DNA of 64,000 nt, from assembly GCF_029945705.1 (NCBI RefSeq), contig NZ_JAQSDC010000053.1, forward strand, positions 1-64,000, given 5' to 3'. The position numbers and the translations under genes were made by a program. How positions within the stretch are numbered: position 1 is the stretch's first letter; the number at the start of each line of letters is the position of its first letter. The DNA is from Methylotenera sp. Lineage in GTDB: Bacteria > Pseudomonadota > Gammaproteobacteria > Burkholderiales > Methylophilaceae. This document shows positions 4,606 through 50,725 of the stretch, piece after piece. Below the pieces are notes generated by a model, which was given only the letters and a program-made list of their open reading frames with translations, did not search any database and was not told the origin of the DNA.

Positions 4606-4607
4606 AG

Positions 4608-5765: not shown

Positions 5766-6015
5766 GGGTGCAAATGTAGCCTAATTTATATTCATGCTAG
5801 AAATAGGTGATTTTAAGCTCAAACTTAGAGCTTGAGTAATGCTTAACTCACAAATATTTAAAAGACTAAAATTTTGTTGTAAGCGCCACTCGCTTCATAT
5901 GCAGGATAACCATTTGAATTAATAGTTTAGCTATATTTAACTACTTTTATTAGGTGTTTGATTTTATCCAAACCGCATTAAGCTAACACTTTACATTTAC
6001 CTTTCTGGCTGAGTT

Positions 6016-7659
6016 GTGAACAATATTGAATCCAGTATCGTTGCCGACTTTAGGCAAACCCTGCTTTGGCCCGTCCAGCTCATTTCAGAGTCAAATAGCC
6101 AAAAAATCCAACGCCCATGGGATATTCTCAAAGCTGAAAACTGCCCTTGGCAAGAGATTCAGGATGAATTTTCTTTAGCTAAACAATCTTTAAGTGAAGT
6201 GCGTTATCAAGAATTTGTCACTTTTATGCCGTTTGCACAGCGTTTTCTATATGGCGAAGGCAAACATGGCCGCGAGTCTGGCGGCTACGGTGAATCACCG
6301 CTGCATATATTTTCACGCTCCGATGTAAGCCAAGTCCGCATTACGCTAAACCACGAAAAAGAGCCCATCGTATTAAAAGTTGCGCATATTGAGTTGTACT
6401 TCTTTTTTGATATTGACGTGGCTTTTTTAGCACTGGAGGTCACGGGGCAAAACATTAAGCTTAATCATGCCATGGATATTCTCTACCGCTTGGGACGCAC
6501 TTATCCAAACTATTGGGAAGAAAATGGCGATGCAGGTCATTGTGCAAAAAGTATTGAATGGTTAGATAAGCTAGGCAATGTGCTTTCACGCTCAGACTAC
6601 CAAGATAAAACTCGCTATTTAGCCTTTGTAAAAGACAATCACGTGCCCTGCGTTTCATTGCATTGGGAGTTTTTAATGCATCCCTTGGTACAGCATTATT
6701 CCAGTCAAGAAGGCCAAATTCGCTATCGTGAGATTGAATACCAGCGCATGCCTTTAATGGCATATCTAGCTTTTGAAGATATTAGCAAGCTGACCCGCGG
6801 CGATTTGATACGATTAGGCTTGGTCACCCAGCCTTGGGATTCTGACACACTGCCATTTACCGAAGAGTTTTTAAGTAATTTTGAACAAAAACATTGTTAC
6901 GACCGCTATTGGGACAACAACAAGCGCGACCTCTGGAGTAGCACGCGCATTATGTGCACAGGGCAAAATTTTATTGTAGTCGGCAGCCAACAGCATCGCG
7001 TGTACACCAACGACAAAACTGGTATTAAACGCAATTATCAAAATCAATATTTTTTACTGTTTTTAATTGCGCATTTTCAAAAAGCTGCGCTCTTAATGCT
7101 ATCAGACCGCATGGTGCAAGCCATTAGCCGACTCAACATTGAAGAAGAAGATTCCATCAAGGCATTTAGGCAAAGCATACGCAATGTGATGGGCGTATTT
7201 TTACGCTTTACCCACCGCTATTGGTTTGAAAGCGTATCAGACCAAGCCGTGGCAAAAGATGTATTTAGCATGATGCATAAGCAATTAGAGACGGTAGACC
7301 TGTTTAAAAAAACTCGTGGTCGCATTATGGATATGGCCGAATATTTAGAAGGCGAAGAGATTAAACGTCAAGCAGATACTGTAGTCAGGCTCACAGTAGT
7401 CACCATTTTAGGCTTAATTGGTAGCATGACCAGCGGCCTGTTAGGGATGAATATTTTCGATTTCAGCCAAGCAAGCCTCATAGAAAAATTCAGCTACTTT
7501 ATAGGGATTTTTATCCCAGTTGGTATACTCACGTTTTACACTGTACTTAAATCGCGCAGACTATCGCTGTTTTTAGACGCACTTTCCAACGAAAATACGG
7601 GCTTGCTGTATAAGCTCACTAAATTGAAAAGTGTATGGTTTGGTAAGTCCGAAGATTAG
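6016..7659 (+). CDS. CorA-like divalent cation transporter
   Basis: Large CorA-superfamily protein of 547 residues, longer than classic CorA (about 316). Near the C-terminus are two membrane helices, with the signature GMN at 477-479 at the end of the first (TSGLLGMNIF), as in Mg2+ or Co2+ channels. The long N-terminal part would form the cytoplasmic funnel. A stretch around 390-450 is rich in charged helical sequence, as in the CorA stalk helix. It begins with GTG at 6016. Ion preference is unknown. It is monocistronic as far as can be seen. Confidence 0.82.
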   Translation: MNNIESSIVADFRQTLLWPVQLISESNSQKIQRPWDILKAENCPWQEIQDEFSLAKQSLSEVRYQEFVTFMPFAQRFLYGEGKHGRESGGYGESPLHIFSRSDVSQVRITLNHEKEPIVLKVAHIELYFFFDIDVAFLALEVTGQNIKLNHAMDILYRLGRTYPNYWEENGDAGHCAKSIEWLDKLGNVLSRSDYQDKTRYLAFVKDNHVPCVSLHWEFLMHPLVQHYSSQEGQIRYREIEYQRMPLMAYLAFEDISKLTRGDLIRLGLVTQPWDSDTLPFTEEFLSNFEQKHCYDRYWDNNKRDLWSSTRIMCTGQNFIVVGSQQHRVYTNDKTGIKRNYQNQYFLLFLIAHFQKAALLMLSDRMVQAISRLNIEEEDSIKAFRQSIRNVMGVFLRFTHRYWFESVSDQAVAKDVFSMMHKQLETVDLFKKTRGRIMDMAEYLEGEEIKRQADTVVRLTVVTILGLIGSMTSGLLGMNIFDFSQASLIEKFSYFIGIFIPVGILTFYTVLKSRRLSLFLDALSNENTGLLYKLTKLKSVWFGKSED

Positions 7660-30871: not shown

Positions 30872-31771
30872 CTATTGCGTATGTTGCCGTACTAAATCGC
30901 TTAACCAATCCATAAAAATCCGAACCCGTTTAGAAAGATTTCGCCTATGCGGATACACTAAAGATAAGGGCATCGCTGGTGCACCAAAGTCCTTTAGTAT
31001 CTCCACTAACTTGCCTTCAGCGATAAGCTTGGCGCCACCGATTAACGGCGCTTGAATAATTCCCAAACCTGCCAAACAAGCGGCTTGATAGCCATCTGCA
31101 TTATTGACACTCAGCCGACTGGGCATTGGTATACGCTGACATGCTTCGCCATCCCAGTACTCAAACATATCAAACTTAGTGGCGGCATTGACACAATAAT
31201 GAATCAGCCAGTGTTTGCTTAAATCCTCTAAGCGCAACGGCACACCATGCTGCGCGAGATAGGCTGGGCTGGCATAATTGGTTTGCTTTAACACGCCGAG
31301 ATGCCGCACAATTAAGCCCGAATCTTGCAGTTTTCCTGTGCGTATCACGCAATCAAATCCTTCAGCAATTAAATCTACTTGACGGTCAGTACTGCACAAA
31401 TCCACCTGTAAATTTGGGTAGCGGTCTAGAAATTCTGGCAAATGTGGAATCACAATATTGTGTGCCATGGGGTATGACATATCAACACGAATCAGGCCGC
31501 GAATACTGGCATCTTCGGTTTGAAACAAGCTATCTAGCTCATCCATTTCAGCCAGCACATCTTTACCGCGTTCATAAAAAATCTGACCATCTGGCGTCAA
31601 TTGCACTTTACGCGTAGTACGATGCAGCAATTGGGTGCCAAGCCTGTTTTCTAATTGCTGCACAGCTAGAGATACGCTCGCCTTTGGCAAGCCAAGTGCG
31701 TCTGCCGCTTTGGTAAAGCTACCCAGCTCCGCCACGCGCACAAAGCGTTTTATTGCATCTGTATTTTCCAT
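30872..31771 (-). CDS. LysR-family transcriptional regulator
   Basis: LysR-type regulator of 299 residues from ATG at 31771. The N-terminal winged helix shows FVRVAELGSFTKAADALGLP and VSLAVQQLENRLG (about 10-45). A substrate-binding domain follows with RTGKLQDSGLIVRHLG. TTG at 31789 would add six residues but has less support. It is divergent from the short-chain dehydrogenase with about 113 bases between, the classic layout of a LysR regulator and its target. Inducer unknown. Confidence 0.93.
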   Translation of the reverse strand: MENTDAIKRFVRVAELGSFTKAADALGLPKASVSLAVQQLENRLGTQLLHRTTRKVQLTPDGQIFYERGKDVLAEMDELDSLFQTEDASIRGLIRVDMSYPMAHNIVIPHLPEFLDRYPNLQVDLCSTDRQVDLIAEGFDCVIRTGKLQDSGLIVRHLGVLKQTNYASPAYLAQHGVPLRLEDLSKHWLIHYCVNAATKFDMFEYWDGEACQRIPMPSRLSVNNADGYQAACLAGLGIIQAPLIGGAKLIAEGKLVEILKDFGAPAMPLSLVYPHRRNLSKRVRIFMDWLSDLVRQHTQ

Positions 31772-31884
31772 AGCACAGTCAATTGTCAATAATAAGTGAA
31801 CAGTATAATCATTTATTAAGCATTTATCACCCCATTGAATACCAATACGATAGCAACTTGCTCAATAACTCATGGAGAAATAAA

Positions 31885-32652
31885 ATGGTTCAGAAAACTC
31901 AAAAAATAGGCGTGATTACAGGTGGCAGTCGCGGACTTGGTAAGAACACAGCGCTAGCAATGGCAGCACAAGGCGTAGATGTGATTTTAACTTACCACAG
32001 TCAAAAAGATTCAGCTGAAGCCGTGGTAGCAGAAATCGATGCAATGGGACGTAAAGCCGTAGCACTAAAATTAGACGTGACTAACGCCTCTCACTTTGCC
32101 GGCTTTGCAGAACAAGTTTCACAAGCCCTAACGGTTAATTGGCAGCAGAACAGCTTTGATTTTTTAGTGAATAATGCGGGTGGCGGCGCTTATGCCTCTT
32201 TTGCAGAAACGACCGAAGCAATGTTTGACCAGATGGTCAATCTGAATCTCAAATCGGTATTCTTTCTCACTCAAAAATTATTACCGCTCATCAATAATGG
32301 TGGTCGTATCGTGAATATTTCCAGCGGTCTGGCGCGCTTTGCTATACCAGGTTACATCGCCTATTCTGCAATGAAAGGCGGTGTAGAGGTACTCACTCGC
32401 TTTATGGCAAAAGAGTTGGGCGCACGCAACATCACCGTCAATACGGTAGCGCCAGGTGCAATTGAAACAGATTTTGGTGATGGCCTTGTGCGTGATAATA
32501 AAGACGTTAACGCTTACATCGCCTCACAGACCGCATTAGGCCGTGTGGGCGTTGCAGATGATATTGGCCCGATGATTGCATCATTGCTATCAGAAAATAA
32601 TCGTTGGGTTAACGCGCAACGTATTGAAGTTTCTGGTGGGATGTTAATTTAG
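31885..32652 (+). CDS. Short-chain dehydrogenase/reductase (LysR-linked)
   Basis: NAD(P)-dependent oxidoreductase of 255 residues. The cofactor motif TGGSRGLG (12-19), NNAGG (96-100), catalytic S147 and Y160-x3-K164 (YSAMK) are intact. ATG at 31885 follows CATGGAGAAATAA, a good ribosome site; an upstream in-frame start at 31783 overlaps the LysR gene and is unlikely. It is similar to FabG-like reductases, but the substrate is unknown. It is probably controlled by the divergent LysR protein. Confidence 0.92.
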   Translation: MVQKTQKIGVITGGSRGLGKNTALAMAAQGVDVILTYHSQKDSAEAVVAEIDAMGRKAVALKLDVTNASHFAGFAEQVSQALTVNWQQNSFDFLVNNAGGGAYASFAETTEAMFDQMVNLNLKSVFFLTQKLLPLINNGGRIVNISSGLARFAIPGYIAYSAMKGGVEVLTRFMAKELGARNITVNTVAPGAIETDFGDGLVRDNKDVNAYIASQTALGRVGVADDIGPMIASLLSENNRWVNAQRIEVSGGMLI

Positions 32653-32763
32653 TCATGTAGATTTAATCCAGCCTATTGAAATAAGTTGGGATTACTAAAT
32701 ACGCGTTAAGTGAGCTTTGTCGCAATCGATTTGACGAGTACTTTAAGTAAAACTTCAAAAACT

Positions 32764-32872
32764 CGTCATTCCCGCGCAGGCGGGAATCTAGGCAGCTTTC
32801 AATATCACTTCTTTTTTACAACAATTACTATCATTGACATTTGACTGGATTCCCGCCTACGCGGGAATGACG
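32764..32872. repeat. Inverted pair of REP-like palindromes
   Basis: Two 25-base units, CGTCATTCCCGCG... at 32764-32788 and its inverse at 32848-32872, agree at 24 of 25 positions and are separated by 59 bases. Each unit is itself an imperfect palindrome (ATTCCCGC/GCGGGAAT). It resembles BIME/REP elements found in many Proteobacteria. It lies between the dehydrogenase (+) and priA (-), which converge, so it may also act as a transcription end. Confidence 0.85.
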
Positions 32873-32933
32873 GTAATTTAGGATTCACTCAACTCTTTAA
32901 ATTCGTACAAAGCTCTTGTTAAAAACAAGAACT

Positions 32934-35132
32934 TCAAAACTCTAATGGATCAACATCAATCGCCCATCTCGCTTTGTTGGCGATAGCTTGACCTCTCAAC
33001 TGACTCGCCAAGTTTCTAAGTAGCTTTTGCAGAGCACTTCTATTACTCGTTTGCATCAATACGTGGCCGCGCTCCATGCCTTTCAAACGTTCCATTTGCG
33101 GACGGATTGGATCGTAAACGGTGACTTCTGTGCTTAAACCTCTTGCTAATTTGAAGGCATGGTTTAAAAATTGCTGTACTAGTTGAAAGTCGTTGGCTTC
33201 TGCACGCAATAGCGCCATAAACACATACGGCGGAAACTGCACTTGTTCACGCTCTTGCAGCATGGCGTTGGCGTAGCTCACGTAATCTTGGCTGCGCAGA
33301 GCGTTGAATAGTACGTGCTCTGGAAACTGCGTTTGAATAATGACTTGCCCAGCTTTATCTGCCCGACCTGCGCGCCCAGCCACTTGCATCAGTTGCGCGA
33401 ACAAGCGTTCACTCGCCCGAAAGTCCGGGCTATGTAATGCGCTATCAGTATCAATCACGCCAACTAAGGTCAAATTAGGAAAGTCATGCCCTTTAGCGAG
33501 CATTTGTGTGCCCACCAAAATATCAATTTCTTGATTATGTACTTGATCTAAAATCTCAACCAAAGCATTTTTTCGGCTGATGCTATCGCGGTCTACTCGA
33601 GCGATTCGCGCAGTAGGTAGCAATTGCGCCAAGGTTTGCTCTAACCTTTGTGTACCATGCCCCGTTGGGTGTAAGTCTGCATTGCCGCAACTTGGACATT
33701 GCAATGGGATTTTTTGTTCATGCCCGCAATGATGGCAACGTAGTTTTCGTTGTCCTAAATGTACCACCAAGCGGCTACTGCAGCGTGTGCAGGGCGCAAT
33801 CCAATGACAAGCGGAACACAACAACACAGGCGAATAACCGCGACGATTAATAAACAATAAACTTTGCTCTTTACGTGCCAACCTGAGTTTTAAAGCAGCA
33901 ATCAATTGCGGCGTTAAACCCTGTTGCAAATTCACTTTAGTCGTATCGATACACTCAATATTAGGCAATTGCGCCGCCGTTACCGCGCGCTGATTTAAAC
34001 TAAGTAAATTATATTTATTTGCAGTGGCATTATGCCAGCTCTCTAGCGCTGGTGTAGCTGAACCCAGTACCACGGGAATATTCAAACGTTTGGCACGTAC
34101 CAAGGCAATATCACGCGCATGGTAGCGCATACTGTCTTGCTGTTTGTAGGAACCATCGTGCTCTTCATCAATAATAATGAGCTTTAAGTTTGGCAAAGGC
34201 GTGAAAATTGAAAGCCGTGTTCCGATGATGATTTTAGCCGTGCCAGATTGCGCCAATTGCCAATGATGTAAGCGTTCACTCTCGCTTAAATTACTGTGCA
34301 AACTCACTAATGGGATATTGATGAAACGGCTTCTGAAGCGAGACTCTAGCTGCGGCGTTAAATTGATTTCTGGTACTAACACTAGCACTTGAGCATCTTT
34401 AGCAGCTAAAAAATGCTGCATCAAACGAATATACACTTCAGTTTTGCCGCTACCCGTAATGCCATGTAATAACCAAGCTTTAAATTCGTTTGAACCTTGC
34501 ACAATTTGCTCAACTGCATGCGCCTGCTCATTATTCAAGTCTGGTTCAGAGGCTGATTGTTGTTCTAAAACACGCAGCACTGCCTGTACTTGCTGACTAC
34601 TTGCCCATCCATCTACAACCAACTGTTTCGCAGCTTTGCGTGCGCCGCTGGAAATGGCATCTAACTCAGACTCGGTCAGCAGTTCAGATGCTTGCAATGC
34701 CTCAAAAACGCGACGCGTGACCAATTGGCGTTTAGGGATTTGCTCTATCGTCTGCACGCGCCCTAACTCGGTTAATTGATAAGCGAATTGCTTACGCGAA
34801 ACGGCTGGCGCAATTTGCCGCAAACGTGAGGGTAGGGCAGCCAACAAAGCTTGTCCAAACGGATACTGATAATAATCCGCGCTAAACTTAATCAAATTTA
34901 ACGTTTCAGTATTAATTGGCAACTCGTCGGCAAACACCTGCGTCACTGGCTTGAGCTTTTCTATCGGAAATTCGCTAGTTTCAGCAAAGCCCATCACAAT
35001 GCCAATTTGGCTTCTACGTCCAAATGGCACAAGTACGCGCTGACCAATTTGTGCAACATGACCACCGCTCAAATAATCAAATAAGCGGTCTAAGGGCACA
35101 TCTAAGGCAATTTTTAGGATGGATTTGGGCAA
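32934..35132 (-). CDS. priA: Primosomal helicase PriA
   Basis: Superfamily 2 helicase that restarts stalled replication forks. It has 732 residues: a DNA-binding N-terminal domain, Walker A GITGSGKT (224-231), DEEH of motif II in IIIDEEHDGSYKQ, and eight cysteines in paired CxxC motifs (CSACHWIAPCTRC and CHHCG...CPSCG) that bind two zinc ions. The C-terminal helicase motifs GTQMLAKGHDFP and QVAGRAGRADK are conserved. It converges on the REP-like pair and is divergent from argS. Confidence 0.97.
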   Translation of the reverse strand: MPKSILKIALDVPLDRLFDYLSGGHVAQIGQRVLVPFGRRSQIGIVMGFAETSEFPIEKLKPVTQVFADELPINTETLNLIKFSADYYQYPFGQALLAALPSRLRQIAPAVSRKQFAYQLTELGRVQTIEQIPKRQLVTRRVFEALQASELLTESELDAISSGARKAAKQLVVDGWASSQQVQAVLRVLEQQSASEPDLNNEQAHAVEQIVQGSNEFKAWLLHGITGSGKTEVYIRLMQHFLAAKDAQVLVLVPEINLTPQLESRFRSRFINIPLVSLHSNLSESERLHHWQLAQSGTAKIIIGTRLSIFTPLPNLKLIIIDEEHDGSYKQQDSMRYHARDIALVRAKRLNIPVVLGSATPALESWHNATANKYNLLSLNQRAVTAAQLPNIECIDTTKVNLQQGLTPQLIAALKLRLARKEQSLLFINRRGYSPVLLCSACHWIAPCTRCSSRLVVHLGQRKLRCHHCGHEQKIPLQCPSCGNADLHPTGHGTQRLEQTLAQLLPTARIARVDRDSISRKNALVEILDQVHNQEIDILVGTQMLAKGHDFPNLTLVGVIDTDSALHSPDFRASERLFAQLMQVAGRAGRADKAGQVIIQTQFPEHVLFNALRSQDYVSYANAMLQEREQVQFPPYVFMALLRAEANDFQLVQQFLNHAFKLARGLSTEVTVYDPIRPQMERLKGMERGHVLMQTSNRSALQKLLRNLASQLRGQAIANKARWAIDVDPLEF

Positions 35133-38380: not shown

Positions 38381-38462
38381 TTGAAGAATCAAACTGGTTA
38401 ACGTCTCTGTTCCATAGAGTGTTTAATCGGTGATTTTTACAAGACTTTAGCGCCAACCAATT

Positions 38463-38498
38463 AACCCGTTTCTGCCTCTTGGTATAAACGGGTTTTTT
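38463..38498 (+). terminator. Rho-independent terminator after dsbA
   Basis: Stem AACCCGTTT/AAACGGGTT (38463-38471 and 38486-38494) with a 14-base loop followed by six T. It lies about 80 bases after the dsbA stop. Confidence 0.8.
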
Positions 38499-38572
38499 AC
38501 GTCTATAATATTTATAGTCATTCGCCCACCTTTGCACAAAGGTTAAATTGATTTCATCAGCAAGGCACACAC

Positions 38573-39364
38573 ATGAAAGTTTTTATTACTGGCGCTTCTA
38601 GCGGCATAGGCGAGGCGCTTGCTACAGAATATGCTAAACGCTATGAAAATACAGACAGCACAATAGGACTAGTTGCCAGGCGTAGTGAGCACTTACAAAA
38701 GTTACAATTTAAGCTACAAGAATCCTACAAAGTTAAATGTGCCATTTACCCGCTTGATGTGCGCAATCATCAAGCGCTTGCCTCAGCCGCCACAGATTTT
38801 ATGCAGCAACATGGCACACCAGACATAGTGATTGCCTGCGCTGGCGTGAGCCGTGGAACGCTCACCGAACATGTTGAAGACATCGCCGCCTTTCAAGCGA
38901 TTATGGATATTAACGTCATGGGTTTGGTGCATACCTTTCAACCTTTTATTGAGTCTATGCGCAAGGCTGGGCAAGGTCAATTAGTCGGCGTTGCCAGTGT
39001 TGCTGGAATTCGTGGCTTGCCAGGCGCAGGTGCTTATAGCGCAAGTAAAGCGGCCGCCATCAGTTATTTAGAAAGCTTGCGCGTAGAAATGGCGCCAGAC
39101 AATATTGCCGTCACCACTATTGCGCCAGGTTATATTCGCACGCCAATGACAAACGTGAATCAATACAAAATGCCATTTTTAATGGATGCTGATGTATTCG
39201 CAGATAAGTTTGCCAATGCTGTTGAAAACAAACGCCGCTTCTGTGTGATTCCATGGCAAATGGGTTGGGTAGCTAGATTAATGCGCTTAATACCGCCATT
39301 TATCTGGGATTTTGCTGTGAAGAAAGCGCCTCATAAGAAACGCCTAGACTGGGATTGGCTATAA
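38573..39364 (+). CDS. Short-chain dehydrogenase/reductase
   Basis: SDR-superfamily oxidoreductase of 263 residues. The motifs are TGASSGIG (6-13), S142, and Y155-x3-K159 (YSASK). The C-terminal tail, with two hydrophobic segments and a basic end (APHKKRLDWDWL), suggests membrane association as in the YdfG/DltE-like SDRs. ATG at 38573. The last 22 codons are repeated in diverged form at 43207-43275, beyond the pqi operon. Substrate unknown. Confidence 0.9.
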   Translation: MKVFITGASSGIGEALATEYAKRYENTDSTIGLVARRSEHLQKLQFKLQESYKVKCAIYPLDVRNHQALASAATDFMQQHGTPDIVIACAGVSRGTLTEHVEDIAAFQAIMDINVMGLVHTFQPFIESMRKAGQGQLVGVASVAGIRGLPGAGAYSASKAAAISYLESLRVEMAPDNIAVTTIAPGYIRTPMTNVNQYKMPFLMDADVFADKFANAVENKRRFCVIPWQMGWVARLMRLIPPFIWDFAVKKAPHKKRLDWDWL

Positions 39365-39493
39365 ATAATCCCACAATAATGAATAGAATTTAACCAACTG
39401 TATTACTCTGCTTTAGCTTAGTTAATCCCTGTATCACCTTTTCTAAGTTATAGTTTAATTACAGACATCACTAAACATCGCTAAGCATAAACT

Positions 39494-40111
39494 ATGCATG
39501 AAATCCAAGATATGATTGCCTGTGAGCAGTGTGACGCCGTATTTCACAAACTGTCGCTGGCTAATGGCGAAATTGCGCGTTGCACGCGTTGTGGCGCTGA
39601 AATTGACCGTAATGCGCAAGAACGGCGTAATCACTTGCTGCCGTTGACCATCGCCAGCCTGATCATTTTTGTCATTGCTAATACCTTCCCAATTGTCCAA
39701 ATAGAGTTGCAGGGCTTAGTCAGCAAAACGACATTAATGGGTGCCGTATTGTCCCTAAGCACCGAGGGAGCCTCGCTGGTAGCGCTGCTGGTATTAGCAA
39801 CCACTATATTATTCCCATTCATGCAGATGCTGATCTTGTTTTACTTACTCATTCCATCAACCAGTTCAAATGGCCGTCCTGGATTTAGCTTATTGATACG
39901 TGTGATGCAAGTGCTCCGCCCTTGGGGCATGATAGAGGTATTCATGCTGGGCGTGCTGGTCGCGCTCATCAAACTATCAAACATGGCGACGATTATCCCT
40001 GGTATTGCTCTGTGGGCATTTTGCATGCTGACTGTCATGCTCACCGTCGTGGTATCGTTTAACCCACGCTACCTATGGCAGATAGAAATCTCTGAACAGA
40101 AGGCACGATGA
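39494..40111 (+). CDS. pqiA: PqiA-type membrane protein, first copy
   Basis: Four-helix membrane protein of 205 residues with an N-terminal zinc-ribbon (C10-x2-C13 and C30-x2-C33), corresponding to one half of E. coli PqiA, which carries two such modules in one chain. PqiA proteins work with the MCE protein PqiB in lipid traffic between membranes. Its stop overlaps the ATG of the second copy (ATGA), so the pair is translationally coupled. It is the first gene of the four-gene operon. Confidence 0.88.
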   Translation: MHEIQDMIACEQCDAVFHKLSLANGEIARCTRCGAEIDRNAQERRNHLLPLTIASLIIFVIANTFPIVQIELQGLVSKTTLMGAVLSLSTEGASLVALLVLATTILFPFMQMLILFYLLIPSTSSNGRPGFSLLIRVMQVLRPWGMIEVFMLGVLVALIKLSNMATIIPGIALWAFCMLTVMLTVVVSFNPRYLWQIEISEQKAR

Positions 40112-40845
40112 CAAATAAGGTGCGGGTTAACATTGCAATGCAAGCTAATGCTGAATCAAACGCTGAGTTTATAAGCACTAAATTCAAAACTGTCAGCAGT
40201 TTGGCCATGCTGGCCTGTCACCAATGCGGCAAACTCTGGAAAGATGCACAGGAAGGTGAATGTTGCCAACACTGCAACGCCACATTACACAGGCGTAAGC
40301 CAGATAGTCTTAACCGTACTTGGGCACTCCTCATTACCGCATGTATTATGTATATTCCAGCCAATATATTGCCTGTGATGATCACCAGCACCTTCTTTGA
40401 CACGCATCAGGATACCATTTTGAGTGGCATCATTTTCTTCTGGGTATCTGGAGATTGGGAGCTAGCAGCCATCGTTTTCATCGCCAGCTTTCTTGTACCC
40501 TTACTTAAATTAGCCTCACTATTGATATTAGTAATTAGCTCACAGCGGCAAAGTGTGTGGCGGCAACTCGAGCGTGCTAAGTTATATCGTCTATTAGAAA
40601 TCATCGGCCGCTGGTCAATGCTGGATGTGTTTGTCGTTTCTCTTTTAGTGGGTTTAGTGCAGATTCAGGGATTTGCCCAAATCACTGCTGGCGTCGGTAT
40701 AGTCGCTTTTGGCGCAGTCGTGGTATTAACCATGTTAGCCTCTCTTAGCTTTGATCCGCGATTAATATGGGACACTTCAAACTCCCTAACTTCAAGTCCG
40801 TCAGCTATAGTTACTGATGCCTCATACAAAAGTAATGCCAATTAA
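40108..40845 (+). CDS. pqiA: PqiA-type membrane protein, second copy
   Basis: Second PqiA half, 245 residues, with its own zinc-ribbon (C37-x2-C40 and C53-x2-C56) after a 30-residue polar leader, then four helices. It overlaps the first copy by four bases, and the pqiB start lies about 20 bases downstream. Together the two proteins should replace the single fused PqiA of E. coli. Confidence 0.88.
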   Translation: MTNKVRVNIAMQANAESNAEFISTKFKTVSSLAMLACHQCGKLWKDAQEGECCQHCNATLHRRKPDSLNRTWALLITACIMYIPANILPVMITSTFFDTHQDTILSGIIFFWVSGDWELAAIVFIASFLVPLLKLASLLILVISSQRQSVWRQLERAKLYRLLEIIGRWSMLDVFVVSLLVGLVQIQGFAQITAGVGIVAFGAVVVLTMLASLSFDPRLIWDTSNSLTSSPSAIVTDASYKSNAN

Positions 40846-40866
40846 AGACATGATGAAAGAAATGTG

Positions 40867-42495
40867 ATGAGCGAAGAGATTACTCAAGAAAATGTAGCTG
40901 GCCTGCCGACTCCAAAACGTGAGCAACAACGTAAGTGGTTGCCGTCGCTGGTATGGCTAATTCCTATTATCGCTGCAATTATTGGTATCGTCTTAGTGGC
41001 TAAAATACTCATAGACCGCGGTCCCGTCATCACCATTACATTCCGCACTGGTGAAGGCCTAGAAGCAGGTAAAACCCGAGTAAAATATAAAGAGGTGGAT
41101 ATTGGTGAAGTGCAGACTATCAGCTTGAGTAAAGACCGCTCTCAAGTACAAGTCAAAGTGCAATTAGCTAAAAATGCAGAAAGCTTTACCACGATGGACA
41201 CACACTATTGGGTGGTTCGTCCACGTTTAGGTGCATCTGGTATCTCAGGACTCGGCACATTGCTGTCTGGCGCCTATATTGCCGCGGATGGCGGCGTATC
41301 AGAAGAAACAACCAAAGAGTTCACTGGGCTAGAAGTACAACCAACCGTGACGCGCGATGACTCAGGTAAGCAGTTTATGTTGCATGCAGATGACTTAGGA
41401 TCAGTCGATGTTGGCTCACCCATTTTCTACCGTCGCGTCAAAGTCGGCAGGGTTTCTGCTTATGATTTAGATGAGGACGGCAAAGGCGTTAGCTTGCGTA
41501 TCTTCATCGATAAGCCTTATGACAAGTTTGTTGGTGTGAATACGCGTTTTTGGCACGCTAGCGGAGTCGATATTCAAGTGAACGCCAGCGGCTTTAAGGT
41601 CAATACGCAATCATTGGCTAGTGTGGTGCTGGGTGGACTGGCATTCCAATCAGCAGATGGTAATCCTGGTGCGCTCTCGAAAGAAAACACCACATTTCTA
41701 CTAGCGCAGGATCAAGCCGATGCGCTCAAAGCGCCAGACGGCGATCCTGAAACAGTCATCCTACATTTTAATCAGTCGGTACGTGGTTTAACACCCGGCG
41801 CAACGGTCGATTTTCGCGGTGTGGAGCTAGGTCAAGTTAAGTCGGTGGGTATTGAATATGACGCTAAACTTGAACAATTCAATATGCCCGTGGTGATAGA
41901 GATTTACCCTGCTAGGCTTGGTAGTAAATACGTTAAAGATCAAGCTCAGTCGCCTTACACTCAGCAGCAACGTATACAATTTATGATTAGTCGCGGCCTA
42001 CGTGCACAACTGCGCACAGGTAATTTGCTGACGGGTCAGCTTTATGTTGCACTGGATTTCTTCCCCAAAGCAACACCTGTAGTGCAAGCATCTAGTACAC
42101 CCATCGAATTACCAACTATCCCTAATGGTCTAGATGAGTTACAAACACAAATTGCGACAATTACTAGCAAGCTCAGTAAGGTGCCGTTCGACCAAATTGG
42201 TGTAGATTTGCAAAAGTCATTAGTCACGTTAAACCATACTTTAAACAGTGCAGAGAAATTGACACAAACATTGAATCAAGACGTAGCGCCCGAAGTAACC
42301 GCCGCGATGAAAGATGTGCGCAAAACACTTGATAGTGCGCAGCATACACTGTCAGAAGACGCGCCATTACAGCAAGATTTAAGACAAACGCTACAAGATT
42401 TATCACGTGCTGCAAGCTCGTTAAAAGTATTAACCGATTATCTTGAACAACATCCTGAATCGCTGATTCGTGGCAAAGCCATTGATAACCCTTAA
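40867..42495 (+). CDS. pqiB: PqiB-type MCE/MlaD protein
   Basis: Mammalian-cell-entry (MCE) protein of 542 residues with one N-terminal helix (about 25-45) and three MCE/MlaD domains (roughly 48-135, 160-230 and 285-390), then a helical tail from about 415 (QIATITSKLSKVP). Such proteins form hexameric rings or needles that shuttle lipids across the periplasm. ATG at 40867 is preferred; GTG at 40864 is in frame directly before it. It is the core gene of the pqi operon. Confidence 0.93.
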   Translation: MSEEITQENVAGLPTPKREQQRKWLPSLVWLIPIIAAIIGIVLVAKILIDRGPVITITFRTGEGLEAGKTRVKYKEVDIGEVQTISLSKDRSQVQVKVQLAKNAESFTTMDTHYWVVRPRLGASGISGLGTLLSGAYIAADGGVSEETTKEFTGLEVQPTVTRDDSGKQFMLHADDLGSVDVGSPIFYRRVKVGRVSAYDLDEDGKGVSLRIFIDKPYDKFVGVNTRFWHASGVDIQVNASGFKVNTQSLASVVLGGLAFQSADGNPGALSKENTTFLLAQDQADALKAPDGDPETVILHFNQSVRGLTPGATVDFRGVELGQVKSVGIEYDAKLEQFNMPVVIEIYPARLGSKYVKDQAQSPYTQQQRIQFMISRGLRAQLRTGNLLTGQLYVALDFFPKATPVVQASSTPIELPTIPNGLDELQTQIATITSKLSKVPFDQIGVDLQKSLVTLNHTLNSAEKLTQTLNQDVAPEVTAAMKDVRKTLDSAQHTLSEDAPLQQDLRQTLQDLSRAASSLKVLTDYLEQHPESLIRGKAIDNP

Positions 42496-42567
42496 CTTCA
42501 TAGCCGCATAGAAAGCGCTCACAACCTTGTAACATGAATAAGTAATATGAAAAATTGGAGTCATCGT

Positions 42568-43197
42568 ATGAGTTTCACCAAATCTACCGCATTGATACTG
42601 ACGCTGGTTGCCGCGCTCGCGGCATGCGCACAAGCCGCAACAACGCGTTTTTATACCTTAAATAACCCAACGCAACACCAGCCTGCAGCTATATCAAAAA
42701 CAATGCCGATTGCCATTGAGATATTGCCCGTGCGCGTTCCAGAACGTTTGAAACGCCCGCAGCTTGTACTTACCTCAAAAGAGACTTCTCAACTGAAAAT
42801 TCTTGAGCAGGATCGCTGGTCATCTTCATTTGATGACGAACTTCATGATGCATTTGTTGCTGGCATCACCAATCAACTTGGCGCTATCGAGATTTCACAT
42901 AGCCGAAGATTAGCCAATCAACCAACTTACCGCATCGCTATTGCATTGCAGCAATTCAATGCGACCCTAGGTGAACAAGTACAAACTAATTTTGCGTGGA
43001 CGATTACCCGCTTAAATACTGACTCCAGTACAGCCGATAATAGCGCGTTATCGTGCCAAACCATTTTCAGCAAAGCGGTTAGTAACGATATAGATGCCAT
43101 AATAAAAGGTGTGGGTGAAGCTGTTGCGGAAGCAACTCAGGCAATCTCTACGAATGTGAGCAGCCTTAATAATGGTGAACTAGGTAAATGTCTTTGA
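42568..43197 (+). CDS. pqiC: PqiC-type outer membrane lipoprotein
   Basis: ABC-type transport auxiliary lipoprotein (DUF330/PqiC family) of 209 residues. ATG at 42568 has GGAG seven bases upstream and is preferred over the in-frame ATG at 42547. The signal ends in the lipobox LAAC, so the mature protein is acylated, presumably in the outer membrane. RFYTLNNPT and VRVPERLKRPQLV are the typical N-terminal strands of the family. It is the last gene of the operon, and a fragment of a dehydrogenase gene lies directly after it. Confidence 0.88.
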   Translation: MSFTKSTALILTLVAALAACAQAATTRFYTLNNPTQHQPAAISKTMPIAIEILPVRVPERLKRPQLVLTSKETSQLKILEQDRWSSSFDDELHDAFVAGITNQLGAIEISHSRRLANQPTYRIAIALQQFNATLGEQVQTNFAWTITRLNTDSSTADNSALSCQTIFSKAVSNDIDAIIKGVGEAVAEATQAISTNVSSLNNGELGKCL

Positions 43198-43206
43198 GCA
43201 CAAACA

Positions 43207-43275
43207 CCATTTTTATGGGATTTTGCCATGAAAAAAGCGCCTCATAAGAAGCGCTTAGATTGGGATTGGCTTTAA
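43207..43275 (+). pseudogene. 3' fragment of a short-chain dehydrogenase gene
   Basis: An open reading stretch encodes PFLWDFAMKKAP followed by HKKRLDWDWL and a stop, matching the last 22 residues of the dehydrogenase at 38573-39364 (PFIWDFAVKKAP) at 20 of 22 positions, and the homology continues a few bases past the stop (TAAATAAT). At DNA level 60 of 69 bases agree by my count, with most changes synonymous. No upstream part of the gene exists here; pqiC ends nine bases before it. It is a remnant left by duplication or by homologous recombination with a related strain. Confidence 0.9.
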
Positions 43276-43330
43276 ATAATAGTTAGGCTTGTAAGTTGCA
43301 AAGTTAAGTGTTCTTAATTATTACAGCTTT

Positions 43331-44011
43331 TTATTTGAGCAATAAGTCAAATAATTTTTTAGGTGTTAGTTTTTCAGGCTTGCTAATTTCAGGTTCGCTA
43401 GATTGACCTTTAAGTTTGTCTAATCGTAATAATTCATCCATTTCAGCTTTATCTTTTGCATTTTTTTCTTCCAACTCTTTATTAGCTTTTTCATCAGCGG
43501 CTGCTCTCTCAAAGAAATCTCGCTGCTCTGGCGACATACTGTCAAACTTCTCATGCCTGCCTTTCTCCATGGCTTCATCAATTTTTTGCATCCGTAATTT
43601 CTCAGCATCCGCTAAATCTTGCTGCTTTTTCTCATATTTAATCCGTCCTTCAGGTGTGCTACGTAAATTACTTTCAGTAATTAAGTCGTAGCAAATTGAA
43701 TCATTCTCCATTACGCCAACACTATCTGCCATAACTACATATCTTACAGTCTGATAGCCGCCATACGCTCCGTACTTATTTTTACCATTAAAAGTAGCAC
43801 ATCCCATTTTGCCATCTTTGGATATTGTAATATCTCGCCATCTCAAAGCCTTTTCGTCAAATGAAGACATTTCTATGGATTTTTTTATATATTTATTCGT
43901 TAATTTAAAGTTAGCATTAGCTTCTGGTTCAGCTTGAACTGAGCTGGAAATAATAACTGTGGTGAGCAGGCAGGAAACATTCAGTGCTGTTTTTATTGTT
44001 ATATAGTTCAT
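43331..44011 (-). CDS. Hypothetical secreted protein with charged helical tail
   Basis: I do not recognise a family. The protein has 226 residues and a signal peptide (about 1-27, ending VQA). A folded part of about 30-125 contains two or three cysteines (MGCATF, SICYDL). The second half is highly charged and helical (KYEKKQQDLADAEKLRMQK, then ADEKANKELEEKNAKDKAE), probably a coiled coil. It lies in the accessory block, converging on the dehydrogenase fragment. It is AT-rich compared with its neighbours. Confidence 0.7.
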   Translation of the reverse strand: MNYITIKTALNVSCLLTTVIISSSVQAEPEANANFKLTNKYIKKSIEMSSFDEKALRWRDITISKDGKMGCATFNGKNKYGAYGGYQTVRYVVMADSVGVMENDSICYDLITESNLRSTPEGRIKYEKKQQDLADAEKLRMQKIDEAMEKGRHEKFDSMSPEQRDFFERAAADEKANKELEEKNAKDKAEMDELLRLDKLKGQSSEPEISKPEKLTPKKLFDLLLK

Positions 44012-44045
44012 TTTTCTATCTTTCTGATAAATTTTAATGTAAAAA

Positions 44046-44071
44046 GTAAAGGCTTGCGGTAGCGAGCCTTT
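44046..44071 (-). terminator. Terminator after the 44.1-kb orphan gene
   Basis: On the minus strand a 10-bp stem AAAGGCTCGC/GCAAGCCTTT with one G-T pair and a TACC loop is followed by TACTTTTTAC. It lies 23 bases after the stop at 44094. Confidence 0.6.
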
Positions 44072-44093
44072 AGAGATGGGTTGTATGTTGAAT

Positions 44094-44453
44094 TCAGTAC
44101 TCGTTACCTATCCAATGGTAGGAGCTGACAAGCCCAGCTTTACCAGCTATGAAGGTCCGCTTGTCATCAGCCAAAACACGCTTGACTAGCCACCCCAAGT
44201 CCTTGGCGGCATCCTCAGACGCCGATTCGGCGTCTTTTCCAGCGTCGATATGCTTATCGTAGAGTGCTTGCAGGGGAGTACCCGCCCAATCAGTATTTGT
44301 GCCACCCATTAGGTCTCGTACAGCGAATGGTTCACCAGCGCGGTTTTTGACCCAGCAATAGATGGCACCTTGCATAAAGGTTCTGATTCGGGATTTTTCG
44401 TTATCAGAAATGCCATGCACCTCTCTAAGCTCTGAATGTTCAGTAAATGCCAT
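44094..44453 (-). CDS. Hypothetical protein in accessory block
   Basis: I do not recognise this 119-residue protein. It is soluble, with tryptophans at regular distance (IYCWVKN, NTDWAGTP, DLGWLVKR, YHWIGNEY) and an acidic middle (AGKDAESASEDAAKD). ATG at 44453 follows AAAGGAATCACAT on the minus strand, a good ribosome site. It begins 36 bases after ettA ends, so it could be read through from ettA. Its base composition looks slightly richer in GC than the neighbours. Confidence 0.65.
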   Translation of the reverse strand: MAFTEHSELREVHGISDNEKSRIRTFMQGAIYCWVKNRAGEPFAVRDLMGGTNTDWAGTPLQALYDKHIDAGKDAESASEDAAKDLGWLVKRVLADDKRTFIAGKAGLVSSYHWIGNEY

Positions 44454-44489
44454 ATGTGATTCCTTTCAGTTGTATAGTGATATAAATGC

Positions 44490-46154
44490 CTAGCGCGTAA
44501 TAGGCTTATAACGAATACGTTTAGGTTTAGCGCCTTCTTCACCCAAGCGTTTGCGTTTATCAGTTTCATACTCTTGATAGTTACCGTTAAAAAATGTCCA
44601 TTGTGATTCGCCTTCTGCGGCTAGAATGTGTGTCGCAATACGGTCTAAGAACCAGCGATCATGTGAAATCACCAATACGCAACCAGCAAACTCTAGTAAG
44701 GCATCTTCTAGCGCACGTAAGGTTTCCACGTCTAAGTCGTTTGACGGCTCATCTAGCAGCAACACATTGCCGCCTGAAATAAGCGTTTTAGCCAAGTGCA
44801 AGCGGCCACGTTCACCGCCTGAAAGTTGACCAACGATTTTTTGCTGATCACCGCCTTTAAAGTTAAAGCGACCAATGTAAGCACGTGATGGTGTTTCGTA
44901 ACGACCGACGGTAAGAATATCTGAGCCACCTGAAATTTCGTCAAATACCGTTTTAGCATCGCTCAACGCATCGCGGCTTTGGTCAACATATGCCATTTTC
45001 ACTGTTTGACCGATGTTCACTTCACCACTGTCGGGCGTTTCTTTGCCTGTAATCATTTTAAACAGCGTTGATTTACCTGCGCCGTTTGGGCCAATAATGC
45101 CGACAATCGCGCCTGCTGGCACACTGAAGCTCAAATTATCAATCAATAAACGGTCTTTAAAGGCTTTGCTGACGCCGTTAAACTCAATGACCTGATCACC
45201 TAAACGCTCACCTGCGGGAATGAATATTTCCTGCGTTTCATTACGTTTTTGATATTCGGCACTGGCTAACTCTTCGTAGCGGGCAATACGTGATTTACTT
45301 TTTGCTTGACGTGCTTTTGGGTTTTGGCGCACCCACTCCAACTCGGTATTCAATGCTTTACGACGTGAAGATTCTTGCGATTCCTCCAGCGCCAAACGTG
45401 CTTGCTTTTGGTCTAGCCAGCTTGAGTAATTGCCTTTCCATGGAATACCATGGCCGCGATCTAACTCTAAAATCCATTCCGCTGCGTTATCAAGGAAGTA
45501 TCGATCATGCGTGACCGCCACCACAGTACCTGGAAAGCGCACTAAGAACTGTTCTAACCATTCCACAGACTCTGCATCCAAATGGTTAGTTGGCTCGTCT
45601 AGTAGCAGCATATCTGGCTTAGAAAGCAATAGTTTACATAAAGCCACACGGCGCTTTTCACCGCCTGATAGTGGGCCAATTTTTGCATCCCAAGGTGGTA
45701 GGCGCAGCGCATCTGCGGCTATCTCTAGTTGTGTGGTTAAGTCACTGCCGCTTGCCGCAATAATGTTTTCCCACTTGGCTTGCTCTTCAGCCAACTTATC
45801 AAAATCTGCGTCTGGCTCTGCATAAGCCGCATATACCGCCTCTAACTTGGCTTGCGCCTCCATTACTTCACCCATGCCTGATTCAACTTCTTCACGCACG
45901 GTTTTTTCTGGGTCTAATTGTGGCTCTTGAGGCAAATAACCAATTGTCATATTAGGTTGCCATTGCACTTCGCCCTCAAACTCTTTATCCACGCCTGCCA
46001 TAATGCGTAGCACTGTAGATTTACCTGAACCATTTAAACCCAACAAACCAATTTTTGCGCCAGGGAAAAAAGATAAAGAAATATCTTTAATAATGGTCTT
46101 TTTAGGAGGAACGATTTTGCTCACACGGAGCATAGACATGACATATTGAGCCAA
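44490..46154 (-). CDS. ettA: Energy-dependent translational throttle protein EttA (ABC-F)
   Basis: ABC-F protein of 554 residues that binds the ribosomal E site and gates translation according to ATP level. It has two ATPase domains, with Walker A GLNGSGKST (about 38-46) and GPNGAGKST (about 355-363), two LSGGE signatures and LLDEPTNHLDAE/LLDEPSNDLDVE Walker B blocks, joined by the P-site tRNA interaction motif linker. No transmembrane part. The start appears to be TTG at 46154 (MAQYVMSMLRV), which matches the E. coli N-terminus MAQFV in position. Confidence 0.96.
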   Translation of the reverse strand: MAQYVMSMLRVSKIVPPKKTIIKDISLSFFPGAKIGLLGLNGSGKSTVLRIMAGVDKEFEGEVQWQPNMTIGYLPQEPQLDPEKTVREEVESGMGEVMEAQAKLEAVYAAYAEPDADFDKLAEEQAKWENIIAASGSDLTTQLEIAADALRLPPWDAKIGPLSGGEKRRVALCKLLLSKPDMLLLDEPTNHLDAESVEWLEQFLVRFPGTVVAVTHDRYFLDNAAEWILELDRGHGIPWKGNYSSWLDQKQARLALEESQESSRRKALNTELEWVRQNPKARQAKSKSRIARYEELASAEYQKRNETQEIFIPAGERLGDQVIEFNGVSKAFKDRLLIDNLSFSVPAGAIVGIIGPNGAGKSTLFKMITGKETPDSGEVNIGQTVKMAYVDQSRDALSDAKTVFDEISGGSDILTVGRYETPSRAYIGRFNFKGGDQQKIVGQLSGGERGRLHLAKTLISGGNVLLLDEPSNDLDVETLRALEDALLEFAGCVLVISHDRWFLDRIATHILAAEGESQWTFFNGNYQEYETDKRKRLGEEGAKPKRIRYKPITR

Positions 46155-47498: not shown

Positions 47499-49331
47499 CT
47501 ATTCAACCGTCACAGATTTTGCCAAATTTCTTGGCTTATCTACATCAGTGCCCTTAATTAATGCCACATGATAGGCTAACAACTGCACTGGAATAGTGTG
47601 CAATATAGGGGAAAGCACGCCTACATGGCGCGGGGTACGGATGACATGCACGCATTCACTTTCGGCAAAATGACTATCATCATCTGCAAATACAAAGAGC
47701 TCACCACCACGCGCTTTTACTTCTTGCATGTTAGATTTCACTTTTTCTAACAAGGTGTCATTTGGCGCAATGACTACCACGGGCATATCACTATCAACCA
47801 ACGCTAAAGGGCCATGTTTAAGCTCACCTGCAGGATAAGCTTCAGCGTGAATATACGAAATTTCTTTAAGCTTAAGTGCACCTTCTAAGGCGATAGGATA
47901 GTGTATCCCACGACCTAAAAACAGTGCATGGTGTTTATCAGCAAAAGCTTTTGCCCACTCACGTATTTGTGGCTCTAAATTCAGCGCGTGCTGCACGCTA
48001 CCACCTAATTGCCTCAGCGCTGTTAGATAGTCTTGTTCTTGTGCCTCATTTAGCATGCCGCGTTGTTTAGCTAATGTGGCAGCTAAGGTGAACAAAGCCA
48101 CCAATTGCGTGGTGAAGGCTTTGGTGGAAGCTACACCTATTTCTGCCCCAGCACGTGTGTAGAACACTAACTTTGAGGCACGTGGAATGGCGCTTTCTTG
48201 CACGTTACAAATCGATAGCGTGTAGTGTTGGCCTAATGATTTAGCGTGCTTAAGCGCTTCCATAGTGTCTAATGTTTCACCTGACTGTGAAATAGTGACT
48301 ATTAATTGCTTTGCGTTTGGCACAGACACTCGGTAGCGATATTCACTGGCAATTTCAACATTAGTAGGTATTTTTGCAATACTTTCTAACCAATATTTAG
48401 CAGTTAGCGCTGCGTAATAGCTTGTTCCTGCAGCAAGTATTAGTATGCTATCCACTTGGCTAAAAACATCACTAGCTGAGTCACCAAACAGTACGGGGGA
48501 AAAGCTATTATCATCGATTAATGCTTCTATCGTATCTGTAAGTGCTTTAGGCTGCTCGTGTATTTCTTTTTGCATAAAGTGCGCATACGGGCCAAGCTCC
48601 ATGCTGGCGAGCGACACATCACTCATGTGAATTTTACGTTCTACAGTATTGCCATCATTACCGAAAATTGTAACGCCATCTCGACGTATATCAGCGACGT
48701 CTCCATCTTCAAGGTAAATCACTTTGCGCGTGACTGAAAGTACAGCTGACACGTCAGATGCAATGAAGTTTTCATTTTCACCCAAGCCTATTAATAAAGG
48801 GCAACCTTGGCGAGCTGTAATCATGTGTTCAGGTTCTTTAACTGAAATGACACTAATCGCAAATGCGCCTGTCAGTTCAGCTACCGCCATTCTGGTTGCG
48901 GCTAGCAAGACTAAACCTTGATTGTGGTAAAAGTGAATAAGGTGAGCAATCACTTCGGTATCAGTTTGCGAAGTAAACTGATAGCCAAGTTTCATTAATT
49001 TATCACGCTGTTCATTGTGATTTTCAATAATGCCGTTATGAACCACGGCAATTTCGTCTTTTGATACATGTGGATGCGCGTTGTTTTCAGTTACGCCGCC
49101 ATGTGTTGCCCAACGCGTGTGACCAATACCAACCTGCCCACTTAGGCTTATCTCTAGCGCTTTATCTGTCATGGCAGACACTCGACCTACAGCTCTAACT
49201 CTCTCTATACCACCATTATTTAAAACTGCAATACCTGCAGAATCGTAACCGCGATATTCCAAACGACTTAAACCCTCGATAAGTGTTGAAACCACATTTC
49301 TATTTGCAACTGCGCCTACAATGCCACACAT
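47499..49331 (-). CDS. glmS: Glutamine-fructose-6-phosphate aminotransferase GlmS
   Basis: Makes glucosamine-6-phosphate from fructose-6-phosphate and glutamine, the first step to UDP-GlcNAc. It must begin MCGIVGAV at 49331, because the cysteine next to the Met is the glutaminase nucleophile; an upstream in-frame start at 49385 would bury it. It has 610 residues, two SIS domains ([28 protein letters not shown]) and the C-terminal KSVTVE. It lies 23 bases downstream of glmU in the same operon. No glmS ribozyme is seen, as expected outside Firmicutes. Confidence 0.98.
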
Positions 49332-49354
49332 AAAGTTAATTCTTTCTAAATTAG

Positions 49355-50725
49355 CTACTTTTGAATCTTGGAAGGTCGCTTCCAACCTTTAATCGATTTT
49401 TGATCTTTTGACCGGCAAAACGTGAGCTGATCGGCAGGTGCGTCCTTAGTAATTGTTGATCCAGCTCCTATTGTTGCGCCTTTACCTATAGTGATAGGTG
49501 CAATTAGTTGTGTATCAGACCCAATAAATACATCATCCTCAATATTGGTGCGGTGCTTATTCGCACCATCGTAATTACAAGTAATCGTTCCAGCGCCAAT
49601 ATTCACTTGTTTGCCTACGGTAGTATCGCCCACATAACTTAGATGATTAATCTTGCTACCTACATCAACTTGCGAATTTTTGAGCTCTACAAAGTTACCA
49701 ATATGCGTGTCTGCAGCCAGTGTAGTACCTGGGCGCAATCTTGCAAATGGGCCAATACGGCTGTTTTCACCAATCTCAGTGTCATCTATATGTGTAAACG
49801 GTGCGATTTGAGCACCAGCCTTTATAGTTGCATTTTTGATGACACAGTTTGCTGAGATTTTTACGTTATCACCTAAATTAACATCACCTTCAAACACGCA
49901 ATTAACATCAATCTCTACATCTTTGCCACAGCTTACCGACCCGCGCACATCTAGACGAGCAGGATCTTTTAACGTCACACCTTGTAGCAGTAATTTTTGC
50001 GCAATACGTGCTTGATACACTCGCTCTATAGCACTTAAATCTGTTTTAGAATTAATACCTGTCACTGACCACTCATCATCTGTCATTTCTGCAACAACTT
50101 CTACACCCTGTTGCACAGCCAGCGCCACAATATCAGTCAGATAATATTCGCCTTGCGCATTGTTATTGGTCAGTTGTGATAACCACTTTGTTAAATGCAT
50201 ATTAGGCATTGCCATAATGCCAGTATTGACTTCAACGATATTACGCTGCGTTACTGTTGCATCTTTATGCTCGACAATCGCTATTACATTTTGATTATCA
50301 GCTCGCACAATGCGACCGTACCCAGTGGGATCAGCTTTATTAAAAGATAGAATCGCCAACTTATTATTGGCTTGCTCAATTAAGGCTTTACAAGCTGCTA
50401 CATCAACCAGAGGAACATCACCCAGCATTACTAACGACTGTGCATCAATATCTAAGAAGGGGAGAGCTTGTTGCACAGCATGACCTGTACCAAGCTGTTC
50501 TACTTGGTTTACCCAAGTAATATTTTCAAGCAAAAATGCTTCACGAACAACTTCGCCACCATAGCCATACGCCACAATTATTTTGCTTGGATTTAGCATT
50601 TTCGCACAGTCAATCACATGCGCTAATATCGACTTTCCACCTATTGCATGCAAGACTTTAGGTGTATTAGAGTGCATGCGAGTACCTTTACCCGCTGCAA
50701 GAATAATGATATTAAGTGGCATCAT
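49355..50725 (-). CDS. glmU: Bifunctional GlmU acetyltransferase/uridylyltransferase
   Basis: Converts glucosamine-1-phosphate to UDP-GlcNAc. The N-terminal uridylyltransferase has [11 protein letters not shown] (7-17) and [11 protein letters not shown]; the C-terminal left-handed beta helix is made of hexapeptide repeats (from about 250) and holds the acetyl-CoA site. It has 456 residues. It heads the glmU-glmS(-cyclase) operon, behind the ATP synthase terminator. Confidence 0.98.

Follow-up and report, generated by a model that had tools for sequence, protein, structure and literature searches.

An orphan dehydrogenase gene end beside a pqi operon of Methylotenera, a possible scar of recombination between two haplotypes

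The DNA analyzed here, referred to as the window, is a stretch of 64,000 nucleotides from Methylotenera sp. (NCBI RefSeq assembly GCF_029945705.1, contig NZ_JAQSDC010000053.1), in which the gene of an SDR family oxidoreductase (SDR) is followed by a pqi operon, two hypothetical genes, and ettA (Table 1). Genes for PqiA, an MCE-domain PqiB, and PqiC stand consecutively in the order pqiA, pqiA, pqiB, pqiC, and the PqiA matches to two genes, the MlaD domains, and the ABC_trans_aux match bear out the pqi identity proposed from the letters alone. The PqiB-like protein, which starts at GTG 40864 or ATG 40867, scored 441 bits where the NCBIfam PqiB equivalog cut-off is 525 bits, making it a divergent PqiB-like MCE protein. 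To the right of the operon, ettA and the two hypothetical genes are all on the minus strand. Searches of Pfam and NCBIfam with the two hypothetical genes gave no match and no clue to their origin. Among the 186 other family genomes, the first was matched at 60% in G180, where the copy sits at another locus, and weakly, at 30%, in G135, and it has a weak PHROG match to a family of unknown function (1.5e-6); the second had no match in the 51 other genomes of the genus.

Table 1 Features of the SDR-ettA interval, with positions in the window.
Feature	Position	Strand	Basis
SDR family oxidoreductase gene, full-length, PRK07024 type, 263 aa	38573..39364	+	Pfam adh_short 3e-43; NCBIfam NF005437 409 bits, cut-off 266
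SDR 3' end, first repeat copy	39296..39369	+	alignment, site comparison
pqiA-like gene 1	39494..40111	+	PF04403 4.9e-45
pqiA-like gene 2	40108..40845	+	PF04403 1e-53
pqiB-like gene, MlaD (MCE) domains	40864..42495	+	PF02470 in 3 stretches; PRK10807 441 bits
pqiC-like lipoprotein gene	42547..43197	+	PF03886 5.1e-28 (ABC_trans_aux)
Second copy of the repeat (orphan SDR 3' end), of the pqi-less allele type; its left edge is the proposed recombination joint	43205..43280	+	alignment, relatives' SDR ends
Hairpin resembling an intrinsic terminator (9-bp stem, 4-nt loop, then TTTTC), directed toward ettA and the hypothetical gene pair	43235..43256	-	stem scan, fold
Hypothetical gene, first	43331..44011	-	relatives in 2 of 186 other family genomes
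Hypothetical gene, second	44094..44453	-	unmatched in other 51 genus genomes
ettA (ABC-F), usual right neighbor	44490..46154	-	NF008775 992 bits

The end of the SDR gene occurs twice, once on either side of the operon. The two copies align without gaps over 74 nt at 88% identity (39296-39369 and 43207-43280; BLAST E of 5.4e-19 in a search within the interval), and the coding part of the repeat spans 69 nt, or 22 codons and the stop (39296-39364 and 43207-43275), so that the likeness continues 5 nt past the stop. Within these 69 nt, nine sites differ, 20 of the 22 residues are the same (the others change from I to L and from V to M), and direct reading showed synonymous change in six codons. 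The orphan copy is separated by nine bases from the stop of pqiC (43197), and the ORF list of the window holds no plus-strand ORF of at least 80 aa over it. The sequence-only reading had described this recurrence just past pqiC, the mostly synonymous changes, the homology beyond the stop, and the lack of a gene body in the second copy, and it was right on all of these. Against the SDR genes of relatives, the match of the orphan end starts at ~43205 (CACCATTT), which amounts to 22 codons and two bases, and it is there that the end of pqiC runs into SDR codon 241-242.

The distribution of these genes was followed in a sample of 187 genomes of the family, including 52 of the window's genus (the window genome being G000). 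SDR was matched in 51 of the 52, while pqiB was matched in 27 of the 187, among them four members of the genus (G000, G016, G022, and G027); several genus genomes are incomplete, so the absence of pqi from those is uncertain. The operon adjoins SDR in all four carriers and is then followed by ettA in three; the contig of G022 ends inside pqiB, and its ettA lies on another contig. Outside the genus there were 23 pqi matches, and eight of these loci were looked at: SDR-pqi-ettA is the arrangement in three genomes from two other genera, and the remaining five have neither SDR nor ettA nearby. The same arrangement in other genera indicates that the site is an old one for pqi, though the searches did not find the operon in most genus members, nor in the close relatives G012, G018, and G024. 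The order argS, SPOR gene, dsbA, SDR, ettA is retained in most genus genomes whose contig reaches that far; at three loci (L061, L118, and L120), no ettA match followed SDR within the fetched 11-12 kb.

A second SDR end was found in the window only, that is, in 1 of 46 scanned SDR-ettA intervals (one interval with a spacer of 11 was left out, and loci without ettA on the contig were skipped). The other 45 lack it, including those of the five other pqi-bearing genomes that have both genes on one contig. The check proposed beforehand, whether pqi-less relatives have a single SDR end, thus came out positive, and the presence of operon and repeat in all relatives, which would have spoken against an acquisition, is not what we see, pqi being rare in the genus.

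To tell which copy is which, the SDR ends of relatives were typed by their states at the nine sites, within the 69 nt, where the two copies of the window differ. The pqi-less G012 and G018 were fragment-like at 8/9 and 7/9 sites and full-like at 0/9, and six further pqi-less relatives were fragment-like at 7-8 and full-like at 0-2 of the nine, these eight genomes being the same eight that were chosen for a hairpin in the SDR end (see below). The pqi-bearing G027 had five fragment-like and four full-like sites, its SDR end being 92.8% identical to the fragment and 91.3% to the full copy, and the more distant carriers G022, G016, G196, and G197 were fragment-like at 4-5 and full-like at 1-2 of the nine. 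The orphan fragment is therefore of the general, operon-less SDR allele type. The distance of the full tail from G012 (14.5%, with 12.7% for the gene as a whole) is ordinary for this gene, which speaks against a full copy that is simply foreign; the oddity is the slow-changing fragment type. The fragment shares its allele type with the eight pqi-less relatives and for that reason is more probably a displaced resident end than a foreign one. The four full-like states of G027 include a valine codon present in no other compared tail of that C-terminal class (a valine at the same position in L062 and L063 belongs to tails of another class), and this one genome, at four of nine sites, suggests that the full-type SDR end travels with pqi.

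The divergence of the operon was then compared with that of its flanks, as identity at four-fold sites in 10 genome pairs; pairs with G022 were limited to the left-flank genes because of its separate ettA contig. Between the window and G027, the flanks were 66.3% identical (470/709) and pqi 54.3% (264/486; p 3.8e-5). Between G027 and G022 the relation was reversed, with 41.5% for the flanks (119/287) and 63.9% for pqi (204/319; p 4.1e-8), and between G196 and G197 the values were 56.7% and 44.4% (p 2.6e-5). Thus, 3 of the 10 pairs show a mismatch, and the other seven show no significant difference. A quicker pace of pqi could account for window-G027 and G196-G197 but not for G027-G022. In the flank tree, G027 grouped with the pqi-less G012 (100/100), and a G027+G022 grouping was rejected, as was the sister grouping of G196 and G197 for pqi (p-AU 9.6e-5). 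The pqi tree left the order of the three genus members open and did not reject the window and G027 as sisters (p-AU 0.44), and its topology alone was dropped as evidence, being too weak.

Further signs of exchange lie close to the operon. G022 and G027 share a 26-nt piece directly before ettA (92%) and are 92% alike in the first 200 bases of ettA, where G022 is 82-88% identical to eight others, as would be expected if pqi had moved between lineages together with its right flank. Through argS-dsbA, G027 is 93-100% identical to its pqi-less sister G012; the identity drops to 85-91% within SDR, and the near third of ettA is 86% identical. This dip ranks at percentiles 6-10 toward ettA and 7-43 across the SDR bins. 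Taken as sequence comparisons, these results fit a movement of pqi between species at the SDR-ettA site. No import boundary was found in the flanks of the operon in the window, nor a breakpoint in or upstream of SDR. A left boundary could not be placed by sliding identity, either from argS to SDR or over the 64 kb, because the window is at much the same distance from each of its three nearest species.

The minus strand of the orphan fragment reads AAGCGCTTC-TTAT-GAGGCGCTT-TTTTC, a GC-containing stem-loop followed by a T run, as in an intrinsic terminator. Five terminator-like stems were found in 38400-44600, where 5.4 are expected, so that the number itself is uninformative; this one is the longest. 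Folded over 41 nt, the fragment reached -15.4 kcal/mol (z -3.67) and the full copy -11.0 kcal/mol (z -2.14), and in the full copy the T run after the hairpin is interrupted. The same hairpin lies inside the SDR ends of G012 and G018, in which 90 and 67 nt, respectively, separate the stops of SDR and ettA. Among SDR tails that aligned to the last residue, less L061, the hairpin exceeded the stability expected from protein and codon usage in 17 of 24 pqi-less tails (each p<0.01, seven distinct sequences) and missing in the other 7 of 24; it was unexpectedly stable in four of seven pqi-bearing tails (p<0.05), including G027 and the full copy of the window. It occurs in several sequence forms. Where the spacer is shorter than 120 nt, a terminator-like hairpin is present in the SDR end of 9/16 genomes and missing in 7/16, and G027 has kept it though 4 kb from ettA. 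The hairpin of the window would probably end the transcripts of ettA and of the two hypothetical genes.

The sequence-only reading had taken the synonymous pattern to mean that the fragment diverged under protein selection, in another genome or a former paralogue. Such selection need not be the only cause, as the same bases form the antisense hairpin and its T run. Same-codon identity over the last 22 codons was 77% in the eight hairpin-bearing genomes, against a mean of 52% (sd 8.7), a comparison that is partly circular since these genomes were picked by a hairpin in the SDR end. In 16 other pqi-less genomes it was 59.7% where the mean was 49.6 (sd 5.9), with the highest value along the gene, 63.8, lying elsewhere, and in four pqi-bearing genomes it was 54% against 53%. 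The hairpin helps to account for the synonymous conservation of the fragment and may have led to the retention of the scar. This is a warning that synonymous conservation in a gene fragment need not indicate protein selection.

The best explanation, to which we give a probability of roughly 0.52, is that the window is the product of recombination between two SDR-ettA haplotypes, one with and one without pqi between the genes, with a resident fragment whose retention may have been favored by its hairpin. One side would have been exchanged by ordinary homologous recombination. On the other, the sequence just past pqiC would have been joined to the 22-codon end of an SDR allele of the pqi-less haplotype, at a point where no long homology is apparent, either by homology-facilitated illegitimate recombination or by single-crossover integration followed by deletion. 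We infer that most likely a pqi-less resident acquired DNA carrying SDR and pqi, which shifted the resident SDR end 3.9 kb away; a pqi-less resident is preferred because pqi was not found in G012, G018, and G024. The scar may have been retained because its minus-strand hairpin would end transcription coming from ettA, with the hypothetical genes, on the same strand, now in between. The recombination with a relative proposed by the earlier reading fits insofar as haplotypes were exchanged; its foreign fragment is not clearly foreign and is more likely the resident end. Against the explanation as a whole count the four other carriers whose SDR ends lean to the fragment, the pqi tree that does not reject the window and G027 as sisters, the seven pairs without a significant mismatch, the ordinary distance of the full tail, the lack of an import boundary in the flanks, the percentiles of the G012-G027 dip, and the hairpin being missing from some pqi-less tails and short-spacer genomes while G027 keeps it far from ettA.

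The event is of a known kind with one uncommon twist. Homology-facilitated illegitimate recombination (PMC3240628, PMC5361080, PMC2884548) combines, as is proposed for the window, a side exchanged by homology with a joint that lacks long homology, usually with 3-10 bp of microhomology at the joint, and for Vibrio T6SS clusters this route has been proposed to explain displaced 3' remains downstream of new genes (PMC5361080). The present case differs in that pqi occupies this site in other genera too, which means that ordinary two-sided exchange may also carry the operon. Intrinsic terminators of convergent genes (PMC7566282, PMC3027695) likewise consist of a hairpin and a T run ending a convergent pair; unlike those, the terminator predicted here lies in the coding end of the neighbor, and the window has it in the copy of that end that was displaced. 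Among the papers searched, none contained both 'Methylotenera' and 'paraquat-inducible'.

A tentative, less probable proposal is a 'terminator rescue' duplication: with the terminator of the convergent neighbor sitting antisense in the last codons of SDR, an operon could enter without cost only if that end were duplicated, and the scar would be selected, not junk.

The opposite direction is unlikely. Here, SDR-pqi would already have been resident, and the SDR end, spacer, and ettA of a pqi-less relative would have replaced the right flank, with the joint after pqiC. This would likewise yield both allele types. The resemblance to G018 is slightly higher in ettA (91.5%) and in the next gene (92.1%) than over most of the region, and the full ends of the window and G027 agree at 4/9 sites. 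Against it stand the failure to find pqi in the near relatives and the greater divergence of pqi than of the flanks between the window and G027, which argues against vertical inheritance of the operon.

We rank behind it, as rather improbable, a duplication in place, whether of the SDR end as pqi entered or as a tandem copy later mostly deleted, an alternative already raised by the earlier reading that would give the same product. The full copy, freed from the antisense terminator, would then have drifted while the fragment stayed constrained. This requires no second donor and agrees with a full tail changing at the normal rate of the gene, a slow fragment, and a fragment type that is the general one, found also in the four more distant pqi-bearing genomes. 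However, 4/9 states of the full copy recur in the pqi-bearing G027 and not one in G012 or G018, and drift would have had to hit these shared states by chance.

In site-specific integration of a mobile element, the gene end is typically rebuilt by the incoming DNA and the native end displaced, as would be the case here with att-type repeats at the SDR 3' end, but this is very improbable given that no recombinase was found, that the four pqi genes stand alone between the repeats, that the repeat is absent from the five other pqi carriers in which one contig spans both genes, and that the fragment is pqi-less-like over the whole 69 nt instead of on one side of a core.

On the preferred reading, recombination between the two haplotypes, the scar would be a testable trace left when methylotroph species exchanged an operon at a single fixed site. 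It points to a way in which overlap of a coding end with a convergent terminator could decide which joints survive.

Some minor observations were made along the way. In 11 of the 46 SDR-ettA intervals (L033, in reversed orientation, at ~7295-7440, L035, L037, L038, L044, L048, L049, L053, L059, L108, and L114), the final 37-47 nt of ettA are directly repeated at 80-96% identity, the repeat being followed by ~90-150 nt with conserved palindromes and then by the true ettA end. Dispersed copies of this feature were not evident, and Rfam gave no more than a sub-threshold match in four loci tried. The duplicated ettA end of G027, considered as a mirror-image scar, was rejected as such, since the feature is in these 11 intervals, most of them without pqi. 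The window is unmatched at 4001-6000 in the fetched parts of all near relatives and at 31001-33000 in those of some. At 48001-50000, its identity to G027 is ~80%, and at 49001-50000 that to G012 is 81%, with G012 and G027 77% identical at 48001-49000; to judge from these identities, 48001-50000 is possibly another recombination tract. Finally, the SDR-ettA spacer measures 0.5-3.9 kb and holds differing ORFs in L110, L115, L065, L048, L112, and L060, that of L110 containing an ORF of 1111 aa.
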